Assembly: GCF_019635465.1 (NCBI RefSeq) | Contig: NZ_JAHBZK010000012.1 | Span: 1 to 64,000 of the forward strand | Direction: 5' to 3' | Length of the DNA stretch: 64,000 nt | Origin: Hydrogenophaga sp. | GTDB taxonomy: Bacteria; Pseudomonadota; Gammaproteobacteria; Burkholderiales; Burkholderiaceae_C | In this document: in pieces, positions 53,522 to 58,666 of the stretch | How positions within the stretch are numbered: position 1 is the stretch's first letter | How the letters are laid out: each line of letters opens with the position of its first letter | Translations under genes and position numbers: made by a program | The notes under the pieces: model-generated | What the model was told of the DNA's origin: nothing | Databases searched by the model: none | Seen by the model: only the letters and a program-made list of their open reading frames with translations

Positions 53522-53546
53522 CGCTGGCGCGTGGCCGGCGGCTTTC

Positions 53547-53552
53547 TACAAT
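53547..53552 (+). promoter_or_regulatory. -10 of tldD, leaderless start predicted
   Basis: TACAAT then GCCACCCC directly before the ATG at 53561 (9 nt). This also rules out the upstream in-frame GTG at 53531 as start. Confidence 0.5.
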
Positions 53553-53560
53553 GCCACCCC

Positions 53561-55021
53561 ATGATCGCGCGCGAACCCACCCTGGCCCGACTGGCCACCG
53601 CCGAGCAGGTGCTGCTCGAACCCTTCGGCTTGACAACCAGCCACCTGCACAAGGCGCTGGCCGAGATCGCCTCGCATGGCGTGGACGACGCCGACCTGTA
53701 CTTCCAGGCCACCCGCCACGAGGGCTGGAGCCTGGAGGAAGGCATCGTCAAAACTGGCAGTTTCGGCATTGAGCAAGGTGTCGGTGTGCGTGCCGTCAGC
53801 GGTGAGAAGACGGCGTTTGCCTACTCCGACGACCTGTCCTGGAACTCGCTGATCGACGCTGCGCATGCGGTGCGCAGCATCTCGGGTCAGGGCCAGACCA
53901 AGAAGGTCAAGGTGGCCAGCGCCAAGGTTGCCAAGTCGCGCTCCCTTTATGGCGGCGTGGACCCCATTGCCTCGCTCGACAGCACCGCCAAGGTGGCGCT
54001 GCTTGAGAAGGTCGAGCGCATGGCCAAGGCCAAGGACCCGCGCGTGGCGCAGGTCATGGCGGGTCTGGCGGCCGAACACGACGTGGTGCTGGTGGCCCGC
54101 GCCGACGGCACGCTGGCGGCCGATGTCCGTCCGCTGATCCGCCTGTCGGTGACGGTGATTGCCGAGCAGAATGGCCGCCGCGAAATGGGCAGCTCCGGTG
54201 GCGGTGGCCGATTTGGTCTGGCCTATTTCGACGACGCCATGGTGCAGTCGTATGTGGACGAAGCGGTCTCGCAGGCCCTGACCAACCTCGAATCGCGCCC
54301 GGCGCCCGCCGGCGAGATGGTGGTGGTGTTGGGCAGTGGCTGGCCGGGCATTCTGCTGCACGAGGCGGTGGGCCATGGCCTGGAGGGCGATTTCAACCGC
54401 AAGGGCTCCAGCGCCTTCGCCGGCCGCATTGGCCAGCGCGTGGCGGCCAAGGGCGTGACTGTGCTCGACGACGGCACCATCGCCGATCGGCGTGGGTCGC
54501 TCAACGTCGACGACGAAGGCAACGCGTCGCAGCGCAATGTGCTGATCGAAGACGGTGTGTTGCGCGGCTACATCCAGGACGCGATGAACGCCCGCCTCAT
54601 GGGTGTCAAACCCACCGGCAACGGCCGCCGCGAAAGCTACGCCCACACACCCATGCCACGCATGACCAACACCTACATGCTCGGTGGCGACAAGGACCCG
54701 GGCGAGATCGTGGCGAGCATCAAGAAGGGCCTGTACGCCACCAACTTCGGTGGCGGACAGGTCGACATCACCAGTGGCAAGTTCGTGTTTTCGGCCAGCC
54801 AGGCGTTCTGGGTCGAAAACGGCAAGATCCAGTACCCGGTGAAAGGGGCGACCCTGGTGGGCAACGGCCCCGACGCGCTGACCCGCGTGAGCATGATCGG
54901 CAACGACATGAAGCTCGACACCGGCGTGGGCACCTGCGGCAAGGAAGGCCAGAGCGTGCCGGTCGGCGTCGGCCAGCCCACCTTGCGCATCGAAGCCTTG
55001 ACGGTCGGCGGCACCGCCTGA
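53561..55021 (+). CDS. tldD: metalloprotease TldD
   Basis: A 486-residue subunit of the TldD/TldE protease that degrades unfolded peptides and matures microcins and the CcdA antitoxin. It starts IAREPTLARLATAEQVLLEPFGL like E. coli TldD. The zinc site is HEAVGHGLEGDF beginning at His267, and the late GVGTCGKEGQSVPVGVGQPTLRI is conserved. The partner TldE (PmbA) is not in the window. The ATG is fixed by the -10 at 53547 and the family N-terminus. Confidence 0.95.
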   Translation: MIAREPTLARLATAEQVLLEPFGLTTSHLHKALAEIASHGVDDADLYFQATRHEGWSLEEGIVKTGSFGIEQGVGVRAVSGEKTAFAYSDDLSWNSLIDAAHAVRSISGQGQTKKVKVASAKVAKSRSLYGGVDPIASLDSTAKVALLEKVERMAKAKDPRVAQVMAGLAAEHDVVLVARADGTLAADVRPLIRLSVTVIAEQNGRREMGSSGGGGRFGLAYFDDAMVQSYVDEAVSQALTNLESRPAPAGEMVVVLGSGWPGILLHEAVGHGLEGDFNRKGSSAFAGRIGQRVAAKGVTVLDDGTIADRRGSLNVDDEGNASQRNVLIEDGVLRGYIQDAMNARLMGVKPTGNGRRESYAHTPMPRMTNTYMLGGDKDPGEIVASIKKGLYATNFGGGQVDITSGKFVFSASQAFWVENGKIQYPVKGATLVGNGPDALTRVSMIGNDMKLDTGVGTCGKEGQSVPVGVGQPTLRIEALTVGGTA

Positions 55022-55147: not shown

Positions 55148-55984
55148 ATGGACGACGACCTCTTCATCTCCCGCTCTGCCCTGGCCGCGCGCCTGGGCCA
55201 TCCCGATGCGCCCTGGGTGCTTGACGTGCGCCGCGCCGAGCGTTTCGACGGCGCTGCCCACCGCATCGCCTCGGCCCTGCGATCACTGCCGGACAGCGCG
55301 CGCGAGCGCGACGTGGTTGTCTATTGCGTCCATGGTCACGAGGTCAGCCGAGACGCCGCACTGACCTTGCGCGCCAGTGGACGGCGCGCCTGGGCGCTGG
55401 AAGGTGGCATCGAGGGCGCCGAGGCGGGCGTGGATGACCCTGCATTCGTGGCGCGGGTGCGGGCACAGCCGTTGCCGTTGGTGCGACAGCGTCCCGACTT
55501 GGGGGTGTGCGGCGATGCGCCGAGCTGCTGGATCACCCGCGCGCGGCCGAAGATCGACCGCATTGCCTGTCCCTGGCTGGTTCGCAGATTCATTGATCCG
55601 CTCGCTCAGGTGGATTACGTGCCTGCCGATGAGGTGTTGTCGCGCGCCCAGGCCACAGGCGCGGTGGCCTTCGACATTGCGGGTGGGCCCATCAGCCACG
55701 TGGGAGATCACTGCAGCTTCGATGCATTGCTGGAGGCCTTCGGTCTGCACACACCAGCGCTCGATCGGCTCGCCGCCATCGTGCGCGGTGCGGACACCGG
55801 GGCCCTCGATCTGGCCCCCGCGTGTGCTGGTCTCTTGCATGTGTCCCTGGGTCTGAGCCGCCTGCACGCGATGGACGATCAGGCCATGCTGGCGGCTGGC
55901 ATGACGGTGTACGACGGTCTGCACGCCTGGTGTCAGAGCGAGACCGCAGGCACGCACGAATCCCACGTGTGGAGCCCTGCATGA
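55148..55984 (+). CDS. rhodanese-ChrB fusion, chromate resistance
   Basis: A 278-residue fusion. Residues 1-105 are a rhodanese domain with the active-site loop CVHGHEVS at Cys60 and VLDVRRAERFDGAAH. Residues about 120-275 are the C-terminal domain of ChrB (CWITRARPKIDRIACPWLVRRFIDP and FDIAGGPISHVGDHCSFDALLEAF). The N-terminal regulatory part of ChrB is missing, so chromate sensing as in full ChrB is not assured. It overlaps chrA by four bases (ATGA) and probably helps detoxify or sense chromate. Confidence 0.87.
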   Translation: MDDDLFISRSALAARLGHPDAPWVLDVRRAERFDGAAHRIASALRSLPDSARERDVVVYCVHGHEVSRDAALTLRASGRRAWALEGGIEGAEAGVDDPAFVARVRAQPLPLVRQRPDLGVCGDAPSCWITRARPKIDRIACPWLVRRFIDPLAQVDYVPADEVLSRAQATGAVAFDIAGGPISHVGDHCSFDALLEAFGLHTPALDRLAAIVRGADTGALDLAPACAGLLHVSLGLSRLHAMDDQAMLAAGMTVYDGLHAWCQSETAGTHESHVWSPA

Positions 55985-57330
55985 GCCGGCCCGGGGCCGT
56001 TCCCTTCGTCGAGGCGCTTCGTTTCTGGCTCAAGCTCGGCTTCATCAGCTTCGGCGGTCCGGCTGGTCAGATCGCGGTGATGCACCGGGAGTTGGTGGAG
56101 CAGCGGCGCTGGATCAGCGAGCGCCGTTTTCTGCATGCGCTCAACTACTGCATGTTGCTGCCCGGCCCCGAGGCGCAGCAGCTTGCCACCTACCTGGGTT
56201 GGTTGATGCACCGCACCCGGGGAGGCGTGATCGCTGGCGTGCTGTTTGTGCTGCCGTCGCTGTTGCTGCTCATTGCGCTGAGCTGGATCTACCTCGTGTT
56301 CGGACAGGTGCCATGGGTGGCCGGGGTTTTCTATGGCATCAAACCCGCGGTGGCGGCCATCGTGCTGCATGCGGTGTGGCGCATTGGCAGCAAGACCCTG
56401 CGTTCACCGCGTCGCTCGCCCTGGTTGTGGGCGATGGCGATCGCCAGCTTTGTGGCCATCGCGGTGCTCGGCATCGGGTTTCCGTGGGTGGTGTTGGCGG
56501 CCCTGTGCCTGGGCTGGCTGGGCGGGTGGCTGGCACCAGGGCAGTTTCTGCCCGCACCGACGCATGCTGCACCGGCTGAGCAGGGGCAACATTTGGCGGC
56601 CCTCATTGACGATGACACGCCGACGCCGGTGCACGCACGGTTTTCCCGCGCTCGGTTGGTGCGGGTGGTGTTGGCCGGTCTGGTGCTGTGGGCACTGCCC
56701 ATGGCCGTATTGGTGGTCTGGCAAGGGTGGGGCGGACCCTTGCCAACCATGGGGATGTTCTTCACGCAGGCGGCCTTGCTCACCTTTGGCGGTGCGTACG
56801 CCGTGCTGCCATTCGTCTACCAGGGCGCCGTGGTCCAGCACGCCTGGTTGAGTGGGCCGCAGATGATTGACGGTCTGGCCTTGGGCGAGACGACGCCGGG
56901 GCCGCTCATCATGGTGGTGGCGTTCGTCGCCTTTCTGGGTGGGTGGCAGACGCAGGTACTGGGTGCGCAATCGCCCTGGCTGGGCGGTCTGGTGGCGTCG
57001 GTGGTGGTGACCTGGTTCACCTTTCTGCCGTCGTTTGTTTTCATTCTGGCGGGTGGTCCGCTGGTCGAGAGCACCCACGGCCAGCTTCGGTTTACGGCGC
57101 CTTTGACCGGCATCACCGCGGCAGTGGTCGGCGTGGTGGCCAGCCTCGGTGTCTTTTTTCTGGGGCATGTGGCCAGGCCGGTGGCGGGTGGGCCATTGGA
57201 CGGGATCGCCTTGTTCATCGGCGCAATGGCTGCACTCGCCTTGCTGCGTTTCAAGCTGGGCGTCATGACGGTGATCGGCGCCTGCGCTGTGCTGGGCGTG
57301 TTGCTCAAAACCAGCGGTTGGGCCGTGTGA
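55981..57330 (+). CDS. chrA: chromate efflux transporter ChrA
   Basis: A 449-residue long-chain CHR-family transporter that exports chromate using the membrane potential. Two homologous halves are visible: FWLKLGFISFGGPAGQIAVMHRELVEQRRWIS at the N-terminus and FFTQAALLTFGGAYAVLPFVYQGAVVQHAWLS near residue 260. The conserved LPGPEAQQLATYLGW and GETTPGPLIMVVAFVAFLGGW motifs follow each half. The ATG overlaps the stop of the rhodanese-ChrB gene. Confidence 0.95.
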   Translation: MSRPGAVPFVEALRFWLKLGFISFGGPAGQIAVMHRELVEQRRWISERRFLHALNYCMLLPGPEAQQLATYLGWLMHRTRGGVIAGVLFVLPSLLLLIALSWIYLVFGQVPWVAGVFYGIKPAVAAIVLHAVWRIGSKTLRSPRRSPWLWAMAIASFVAIAVLGIGFPWVVLAALCLGWLGGWLAPGQFLPAPTHAAPAEQGQHLAALIDDDTPTPVHARFSRARLVRVVLAGLVLWALPMAVLVVWQGWGGPLPTMGMFFTQAALLTFGGAYAVLPFVYQGAVVQHAWLSGPQMIDGLALGETTPGPLIMVVAFVAFLGGWQTQVLGAQSPWLGGLVASVVVTWFTFLPSFVFILAGGPLVESTHGQLRFTAPLTGITAAVVGVVASLGVFFLGHVARPVAGGPLDGIALFIGAMAALALLRFKLGVMTVIGACAVLGVLLKTSGWAV

Positions 57331-57355
57331 CAAGGCTTTGTGCGCGGCCCTGTGC

Positions 57356-57361
57356 TACATT
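57356..57361 (+). promoter_or_regulatory. -10 of the DAHP synthase leader transcript
   Basis: TACATT then GCGCGCC, 8 nt before the ATG of the leader peptide. The leader peptide would start at or within one or two bases of the RNA 5' end. Confidence 0.5.
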
Positions 57362-57368
57362 GCGCGCC

Positions 57369-57443
57369 ATGGTTTCGCGTCTCGGCTACTTTGCCTTTTA
57401 CTTTTGGTTCTCTGTCCCCGGCGGACGAGAGGCGAAGTTGTAA
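57369..57443 (+). CDS. aromatic leader peptide of DAHP synthase
   Basis: A 24-codon ORF whose residues 7-14 are YFAFYFWF: seven aromatic codons in eight (TAC, TTT, GCC, TTT, TAC, TTT, TGG, TTC at 57387-57410). Such clustering is the hallmark of transcription attenuation leader peptides like pheL (which has a Phe run). It is followed by a rho-independent terminator and then a DAHP synthase gene. Scarcity of Phe, Tyr or Trp would stall the ribosome here. The mixed composition suggests the operon senses all three aromatic amino acids, an inference. I know of no name for this peptide. Confidence 0.85.
   Translation: MVSRLGYFAFYFWFSVPGGREAKL
57416..57424 (+). promoter_or_regulatory. antiterminator strand of the attenuator
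   Basis: CCCCGGCGG, within codons 16-19 of the leader peptide, is nearly identical to the 3' arm of the terminator (CCCGGCGG at 57483-57490). Its CCGGCGG (57418-57424) can pair with CCGCCGG (57467-57473), the terminator's 5' arm, forming the competing antiterminator when the ribosome stalls upstream on aromatic codons. Confidence 0.75.
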
Positions 57444-57460
57444 GCGCGCCAAGAATCTCG

Positions 57461-57498
57461 AAAAAACCGCCGGAGCCCCAAGCCCGGCGGTTTTTTTT
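57461..57498 (+). terminator. attenuator terminator of the DAHP synthase leader
   Basis: AAAAAACCGCCGG, ten-base loop, CCGGCGGTTTTTTTT. A seven-pair GC stem extended by six A-U pairs with an eight-T run, 18 nt after the leader stop. A complete rho-independent terminator in front of the structural gene. Confidence 0.93.
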
Positions 57499-57538
57499 CG
57501 CCCCGTCTCTACCCCACGAACCCTTCCAGGAGCCTGTG

Positions 57539-58666
57539 ATGAACGCCAAAGCCACTTCTGCCGCCAGCGACGCCTGGTATGCGCGACCCGTCGACAAGAC
57601 CAGCGACACCGACGACGAACGCATCCAGGACATCACCGTGCTTCCCCCTCCCGAACACCTCATTCGCTTCTTCCCGATTGCTGGCACACCGACCGAGGCG
57701 CTCATCAGCCAGACCCGCCAGCGCATTCACCGCATCCTGCACGGTCAGGACGATCGGCTGCTGGTGGTGATCGGGCCGTGCTCCATCCACGACCCGGCCG
57801 CGGCACTCGACTACGCGCGACGCCTCAAGCCGTTGCGTGAGAAGTACGCCGATACGCTGGAGATCGTGATGCGGGTGTACTTCGAGAAACCACGCACCAC
57901 CGTGGGCTGGAAAGGCCTCATCAACGACCCCTATCTGGATCAGACTTTCCGCATCGACGAGGGTCTTCGCATTGCGCGCCAGTTGCTCATCGAGATCAAC
58001 CGTCTCGGGCTGCCAGCCGGTAGCGAATTCCTGGACGTGATTTCGCCGCAGTACATCGGTGACCTGATCAGCTGGGGCGCGATCGGTGCGCGCACCACCG
58101 AAAGCCAGGTGCACCGCGAGCTCGCCTCCGGCCTGAGCGCACCGATCGGCTTCAAGAACGGCACCGACGGCAATATCAAGATCGCCACCGACGCCATTCA
58201 GGCCGCTGCACGCGGACACCACTTTCTGTCGGTGCACAAGAACGGGCAGGTGGCCATCGTGCAGACCAAGGGCAACAAGGATTGCCACGTCATTCTGCGT
58301 GGGGGCAAGACGCCCAACTACGACGCAGCCAGCGTGGCCGCTGCCGTGAAAGACCTGGAGGCCGCCAAGGAAACGCCGCGGCTCATGATCGACTTCAGTC
58401 ACGCCAACAGCAGCAAGCAGCACGAAAAGCAGCTGGACGTGGCGCGCGATGTGGCCGCACAGATCGCGGGTGGCTCCCGCTCAGTGTTCGGCGTGATGAT
58501 CGAGAGCCACATCGAAGCCGGTGCCCAGAAGTTCTCACCGGGCAAGGACGATCCGGCGAAGCTGCACTATGGCCAGAGCATCACCGATGCCTGCCTGGGA
58601 TGGGGCGATTCGATGAGCGCCCTCGAGATACTGTCTCAGGCCGTGAGCGCTTCGCGGAGCCGCTGA
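57539..58666 (+). CDS. aroG: 3-deoxy-7-phosphoheptulonate synthase, class I
   Basis: First step of the shikimate pathway: phosphoenolpyruvate plus erythrose 4-phosphate to DAHP. It has 375 residues, the size of type I AroF/AroG/AroH. Motifs: LVVIGPCSIHDP, MRVYFEKPRTTVGWKGLINDP, GARTTESQVHRELASGLS, FKNGTDGN and RLMIDFSHANSSKQ; metal ligands Cys (IGPCS), His and Glu fall in these. The isozyme specificity (Phe, Tyr or Trp) cannot be read from sequence, so the symbol is nominal. Expression is controlled by the upstream leader peptide and attenuator. Confidence 0.92.
   Translation: MNAKATSAASDAWYARPVDKTSDTDDERIQDITVLPPPEHLIRFFPIAGTPTEALISQTRQRIHRILHGQDDRLLVVIGPCSIHDPAAALDYARRLKPLREKYADTLEIVMRVYFEKPRTTVGWKGLINDPYLDQTFRIDEGLRIARQLLIEINRLGLPAGSEFLDVISPQYIGDLISWGAIGARTTESQVHRELASGLSAPIGFKNGTDGNIKIATDAIQAAARGHHFLSVHKNGQVAIVQTKGNKDCHVILRGGKTPNYDAASVAAAVKDLEAAKETPRLMIDFSHANSSKQHEKQLDVARDVAAQIAGGSRSVFGVMIESHIEAGAQKFSPGKDDPAKLHYGQSITDACLGWGDSMSALEILSQAVSASRSR

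Follow-up and report, generated by a model that had tools for sequence, protein, structure and literature searches.

Known leader-peptide attenuators

Leader-peptide attenuation of genes for DAHP synthase, the entry enzyme of aromatic biosynthesis, is a class already known, as it has been reported or proposed in Corynebacterium and Acholeplasma, while aroF of Shewanella is a listed candidate and leaderless leader peptides are described in Streptomyces. In Corynebacterium glutamicum, the DAHP synthase gene of aroR-aroF is preceded by a leader peptide with the residues Phe-Tyr-Phe and is subject to ribosome-mediated attenuation (PMC4046766, PMC11802643). The uORFC-13-1 motif before aroF of Acholeplasma is a proposed upstream ORF with Phe codon(s) and a terminator (PMC8632094), for which the passages describing it give at least one Phe residue, a possible -35 box and ribosome binding site, and an occurrence in Acholeplasma and environmental sequences only. 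The DAHP synthase genes of Escherichia coli are described under TyrR and TrpR (PMC11802643), and a table in PMC2659441, following a 1980 E. coli paper, gives aroF with an "attenuator sensing tyr-tRNA", while aroF and aroH of Shewanella are listed in the same source as RNA-motif candidates. An anti-antiterminator has been described in the Shewanella leuA leader (PMC11802643, PMC2659441).

The element reported here lies before aroG in the window, i.e. the whole 64,000-nucleotide stretch of Hydrogenophaga sp. DNA that was analysed. It has in common with aroR-aroF an aromatic leader peptide before a DAHP synthase gene, but the latter belongs to an actinobacterium and has only Phe and Tyr codons, whereas the present element is found in another phylum and contains Trp as well, and the likeness is one of description. 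With uORFC-13-1 it shares an upstream ORF with Phe codon(s) and a terminator before 3-deoxy-7-phosphoheptulonate synthase. The pheA and trp leaders of E. coli and the leuA leader of Shewanella likewise combine leader codons, an antiterminator and a terminator, but they precede other genes and concern one amino acid each.

In Sinorhizobium, the leader ORF of trpL begins at the 5' end of the transcript. Leaderless leader peptides are described in Streptomyces lividans, where a table of eight attenuators covers Ala, Ile, Thr, Trp, Leu and Met and contains no DAHP synthase (PMC8079986). A leader ORF at the transcript 5' end, as in these two, is predicted for the present element as well. No description of an aroG attenuator in Burkholderiales was found in the literature covered (main texts, mostly from open journals), nor was an earlier account of its breadth, its mixed Tyr/Phe/Trp content or its probable leaderless form. 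The main text of a terminator survey (PMC2965389) makes no mention of aroG, aroF, DAHP or aromatic, while the 82 short 5'UTRs in the supplement to a study of Burkholderia cenocepacia (PMC5688073) may include the aroG element.

Architecture of the aroG leader

All parts of the element lie on the forward strand. aroG (57539–58666, ATG 57539–57541) encodes a DAHP synthase of 375 amino acids, as a first-pass annotation of this DNA had named it, and its product scores 539 bits against TIGR00034 aroFGH (cut-off 173); the sequence AGGAG (57528–57532) is its putative ribosome binding site. This TIGR00034 match is the only one in the genome, whose assembly is 88% complete, and in that assembly aroG is the only DAHP synthase found, with no class II DAHP synthase detected. 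A second PF00793 match, considered as a further DAHP synthase, was rejected, as it falls on a 285-aa ORF between pyrG- and eno-like ORFs, which we take to be kdsA flanked by pyrG and eno. Among named genomes (best 80 of 590 matches), the closest AroG is that of Hydrogenophaga pseudoflava (90% identity).

The leader peptide ORF MVSRLGYFAFYFWFSVPGGREAKL has 24 codons (57369–57443; ATG 57369, TAA 57441–57443), and its predicted sensing codons Tyr-Phe-Ala-Phe-Tyr-Phe-Trp-Phe occupy positions 57387–57410, as assigned from the sequence, codon conservation and modelling. No other ATG ORF of 10–45 codons on either strand of the window has 6 or more aromatics within 9 codons, and none like it arose in 10 first-order Markov simulations of 64 kb. 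The intrinsic terminator AAACCGCCGG-AGCCCCAAGC-CCGGCGGTTT (57464–57498) begins 20 nt after the leader stop, has a 10-nt loop between 10-nt arms and ends in a run of eight T (57491–57498), 40 nt before aroG. The antiterminator strand CCGGCGG (57418–57424), inside the leader ORF, is exactly repeated in the terminator 3' arm (57484–57490) and can thereby pair with CCGCCGG (57467–57473) of the 5' arm. The first-pass annotation had read the leader ORF with YFAFYFWF, the terminator with its T run and this pairing correctly, and the terminator is conserved; the annotation missed an anti-antiterminator hairpin (57408–57431) that encloses CCGGCGG. Its outer arms are TTCTC (57408–57412), which overlaps the last Phe codon, and GAGAG (57427–57431), and further inside GTCC (57414–57417) pairs with GGAC (57423–57426).

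Folding of the 161-nt leader gives a z of -2.94. A consensus scan of 57250–57600 returned no promoter and no terminator, but it requires a -35 box and a loop of 3–8 nt, whereas the loop here is 10 nt and the promoter is apparently of the extended -10 type. Covariance-model search of 56800–58000 found no Rfam family above its gathering score, the best being RNAI (22.8, gathering 47) and Thr_leader (22.7, gathering 55), and no T-box up to E 5.

Sequence and computation show that these parts exist, are conserved and linked to aroG, and fit together geometrically, and very probably the element attenuates aroG transcription in a ribosome-mediated way. RNA polymerase would start about 1 nt before the leader ATG, and a ribosome would translate the leader behind it. 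A shortage of charged Tyr-, Phe- or Trp-tRNA would stall the ribosome in the aromatic run, where it would cover TTCTC, the hairpin 5' arm, and leave CCGGCGG free to pair with CCGCCGG of the terminator 5' arm, so that no terminator would form and aroG would be transcribed. When all three are plentiful, the ribosome would move over CCGGCGG, and after its departure the local hairpin would sequester that strand, upon which the terminator would form and transcription would end before aroG. From sequence and modelling, it is thus very likely that a shortage of aromatic amino acids turns aroG on.

Distribution among relatives

The region was compared over 110 aroG loci, comprising 80 from named genomes (the top 80 of 590 matches) and 30 from among the best of a 200-genome search of the family. 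Of 111 rows (the window's own genome being counted twice), 95 have a leader upstream of aroG, taken as 4 or more aromatics within 9 codons, and the complete element of leader and terminator precedes aroG in 92 of the 110 loci, a count which leaves out the duplicate of the own genome, a false row (L062) and L074, whose leader lacks this terminator. As two of the 92 duplicate the element of other loci, 90 sequences are distinct; the MAFFT alignment A1 contains 83 rows less than 95% alike. The 18 of 110 loci without the complete element include 3 of Polynucleobacter (L029, L030, L033), 2 of Cupriavidus (L034, L035) and several contigs that are distant or truncated. These Polynucleobacter and Cupriavidus loci showed no leader before aroG; the latter two may be second aroG copies, as another Cupriavidus locus, L077, has the leader.

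A covariance model built from hairpin and terminator matches 194 of 200 family genomes at E ≤1e-7 (175 of 178 good assemblies), once per genome except for G163, which has two matches. In the window's own genome no second copy was found, the next best model match (30.4 bits) being without aroG, and plasmids gave no match. A search of 300 genomes of the order yielded, among the matches listed, 73 at E ≤4.4e-8, at least two of them from genomes (G000 and G087) that had themselves contributed rows to the model. In 72 of these 73, from 14 families, aroG lies directly downstream (the exception is L190), and 70 of the 72 loci have a recognisable leader (at least 4 aromatics in 9 codons). Weaker matches are mostly other terminators, as only 4 of the 17 fetched precede aroG and 13 do not.

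Among 229 genomes of the class, four matches at E ≤1e-6 lie outside the family, two before aroG and two not. The same element stands before aroG in L210 (leader FYFWYYFPKPLAEEG) and L211, two genomes of a single family that belongs to the class but not to the order of the window, which may reflect vertical retention or transfer. In L074, a contig labelled as an Anaerolineae MAG, AroG is 65% identical and an aromatic leader (MSRYFSFFSWYGYFAAGQVER and TGTGCTACAAT) is present, with a different long GC-rich hairpin where the usual terminator would be.

Conservation and covariation of the three helices

The pentamer GGCGG is kept in 85 of 90 loci, lying in frame 0 of the leader in 54, frame 2 in 34 and frame 1 in 2, and the peptide read through it varies accordingly (GG/GGR, LAD, AV/KAV, AA/TAA and others). 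That it is kept as nucleotides in different frames is, in our view, the strongest evidence that the RNA matters there, and the second half of the leader peptide was rejected as a conserved object.

Each helix was tested on A1 with 500 shuffles. The terminator is paired in 94.1% of cells with a covariation score of 0.121 (0.074 shuffled), the antiterminator in 83.4% with 0.090 (0.052 shuffled) and the anti-antiterminator hairpin in 76.6% with 0.265 (0.181 shuffled), none of the 500 shuffles reaching the observed score in any of them, in a measure sensitive to relatedness that kinship alone can lift above all shuffles. When the partners are slid by 1–3 columns, both the paired percentage and the covariation score drop for all three helices. 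By the stricter count of pairs changed on both sides, shuffles reach the observed value in 14 of 500 for the terminator, 330 of 500 for the antiterminator and 224 of 500 for the hairpin; changes on both sides occur in only 11 of 28 pairs.

A compensatory change is seen at the position adjoining the GGCGG core, which is C-G in most Comamonadaceae-type loci and U-A in most Burkholderia-type loci, in antiterminator and terminator alike. There the antiterminator is paired in 79 of 90 sequences (at most 72 in 1000 shuffles) and the terminator in 88 of 90 (at most 75 in 1000 shuffles), while one position further from the core both helices are paired in 70 of 90, which does not go beyond the shuffles (up to 71). 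The compensatory stem changes that the first-pass annotation named as a check are therefore borne out next to the invariant core, in terminator and antiterminator, but not at the second position or by the stricter count for the antiterminator.

The hairpin is present in different sequence in Oxalobacteraceae-type loci, where its arms are ATTCCA and TGGAGT. Its folding energies give a mean z of -1.07, below zero in 70 of 83 rows, and swapping hairpin halves across clades weakens the folding in rows of ComA, ComB, the Oxalobacteraceae type and "other", makes no difference in ComC and improves it by 2.2 kcal/mol in Burkholderia-type rows. RNAalifold predicts the terminator as the only structure of the whole alignment. 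By eye, hairpin arms in the Burkholderia- and Oxalobacteraceae-type rows of the MAFFT alignment are 1–2 columns out of place, as is GGCGG in some other rows, so that antiterminator and hairpin pairs may be undercounted in those rows. The three helices form the classical 1:2, 2:3 and 3:4 arrangement, with uneven support for the hairpin.

Ribosome position and the modelled switch

Each leader was folded with an assumed ribosome footprint, in which 15 nt on either side of the first P-site base are forced unpaired and the terminator 3' arm is not yet made. In the window, the modelled probability of the antiterminator is 0.02 without a ribosome, at least 0.98 with the A-site codon anywhere up to Trp 57405 and 0.03 for a stall at Phe 57408, from where it is zero until the stop codon. 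The earlier proposal that a stall anywhere on 57387–57410 frees CCGGCGG thus holds in the model up to Trp 57405 and fails for the last Phe codon. It had also been proposed that a ribosome at the stop codon covers 57418–57424, which the model contradicts, as the assumed footprint spans approximately 57423–57453 and the antiterminator probability on the stop is still 0.59; the switch therefore would rely on the ribosome crossing CCGGCGG and then on the hairpin.

Over the 83 loci, stalls at codons -6, -5, -4 and -3 from GGCGG give modelled antiterminator probabilities of 0.98, 0.86, 0.32 and 0.00, and the aromatic fraction at the same codons is 0.82, 0.76, 0.34 and 0.00. The aromatic run accordingly ends at the modelled edge where a stalled ribosome would cease to expose the antiterminator. 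Changing the footprint by 1 nt in either direction keeps this edge between codons -5 and -3, while 3 nt shift it by one codon; the model fixes only the downstream limit of the run, as stalls further upstream still give 0.78–0.84. In the window, the codons adjoining the edge are Tyr 57399, Phe 57402 and Trp 57405.

A clean off state is not present everywhere in the model, where the antiterminator probability, averaged over all 83 rows, is 0.47 when no ribosome is there and 0.31 with one on the stop codon. Ten Burkholderia-type rows (L049, L050, L052, L054, L056, L058, L059, L067, L068 and L077) are fully antiterminated in the model without a ribosome (mean 1.00), so aroG should go up there when translation is lost, contrary to what is predicted for the window.

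Promoter and predicted leaderless start

A putative extended -10 box, TGTGCTACATT (57351–57361, hexamer TACATT 57356–57361), precedes the leader ATG. The pattern TGnTAnAnT is found before the leader ATG in 58 of 61 Comamonadaceae-type loci, at a distance of 6–8 nt in 55 of the 61, while the information content of these loci does not exceed 0.31 bits at any position from -36 to -30. Loci of the Burkholderia and Oxalobacteraceae types have TATAAA or TATAGT further upstream. Transcription normally starts 6–7 nt past the -10 hexamer, and with the box in this position the transcript should begin 0–2 nt before the ATG, which predicts a start at approximately 57368, about 1 nt before the leader ATG. 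The leader mRNA of Comamonadaceae-type loci is thus probably leaderless, judging by promoter position.

Between aroG and a TldD-like gene further upstream (53531–55021), the region 55148–57330 contains a gene for a chromate efflux transporter (TIGR00937) and a rhodanese/ChrB-like ORF, the latter and the TldD-like gene being named by eye. The last 420 nt or so before aroG include a TldD-like C terminus (VGGTA, or GGTx and a stop) in 49 of 111 rows, which suggests that the chromate genes may have been inserted here just before the attenuator promoter.

Sensed amino acids and alternative explanations

Conservation of the aromatic codons in relatives, named by the first-pass annotation as a check, was found across the loci examined. 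The run is kept with synonymous variation of its codons (TTT/TTC mixed, TAT/TAC mixed). Of 61 Comamonadaceae-type leaders, 46 have Tyr, Phe and Trp consecutively in the codons 15–24 nt ahead of GGCGG. With a codon for each of the three in this decision region, a shortage of any one could open the gate. Effective sensing of all three, as read from codon content, is nevertheless proposed tentatively, at just under an even chance, and we place equally guarded belief in a leaderless three-input sensor in Comamonadaceae, in which a shortage of any one end product would open the gate of the shikimate pathway.

The same attenuator may instead have Phe, with or without Tyr, as its effective signal and Trp contributing little, a reading that is a serious possibility, if a rather doubtful one: Phe is the commonest aromatic residue (4.4–4.6 per leader in Comamonadaceae-type groups), Trp occurs in just 2 of 8 Oxalobacteraceae-type leaders, and the Corynebacterium aroR attenuator is described as answering to Phe and not to Tyr (PMC11802643), but Trp is present in 58 of 61 Comamonadaceae-type leaders, and the Tyr-Phe-Trp triplet in the decision region of the 46 speaks against it as well. 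An additional trans role of the attenuated RNA or peptide, as for Sinorhizobium trpL, is improbable; an ample supply of amino acids would each time lead to the release of a discrete, strongly terminated RNA of approximately 130 nt, and peTrpL provides a precedent, yet no further conserved stretch is seen in the alignment beyond the parts already explained. Still less probable is a TnaC-like arrest peptide sensing a free aromatic metabolite in the ribosome tunnel rather than tRNA charging, as the aromatic run, strongly conserved in place, varies in its F/Y/W residues and spacers (FYFxYFWFS, FYFYFFWHL, FFTGYFYFS, WFFFGFF), is followed by sequence that differs in frame, and keeps composition more than sequence. 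That the terminator merely ends upstream transcription or insulates aroG, with an incidental leader ORF, is hardly credible: a good intrinsic terminator does lie between the chromate transporter gene and aroG, but this reading leaves the aromatic codons, the -10 box and GGCGG kept across frames in the ORF unexplained.

Implications for the regulation of aromatic biosynthesis

Ribosome-mediated attenuation of aroG would be a widespread cis-regulator without an Rfam match for the entry enzyme of aromatic biosynthesis, found in one family and 13 others of the order. As a comparative study discusses TyrR regulons in six gammaproteobacterial lineages, the aroG attenuator would fill a gap. It leads to predictions on the amino acid that each codon serves and on the ability of a single RNA to integrate three end products, while the Comamonadaceae-type loci, probably leaderless, and the Burkholderia- and Oxalobacteraceae-type loci, with a promoter further upstream, offer a natural pair for the effect of initiation mode on attenuation. 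If the three-input reading is true, a single RNA would take the place that three DAHP synthases under separate regulation have in E. coli, in a genome where only one has been found.
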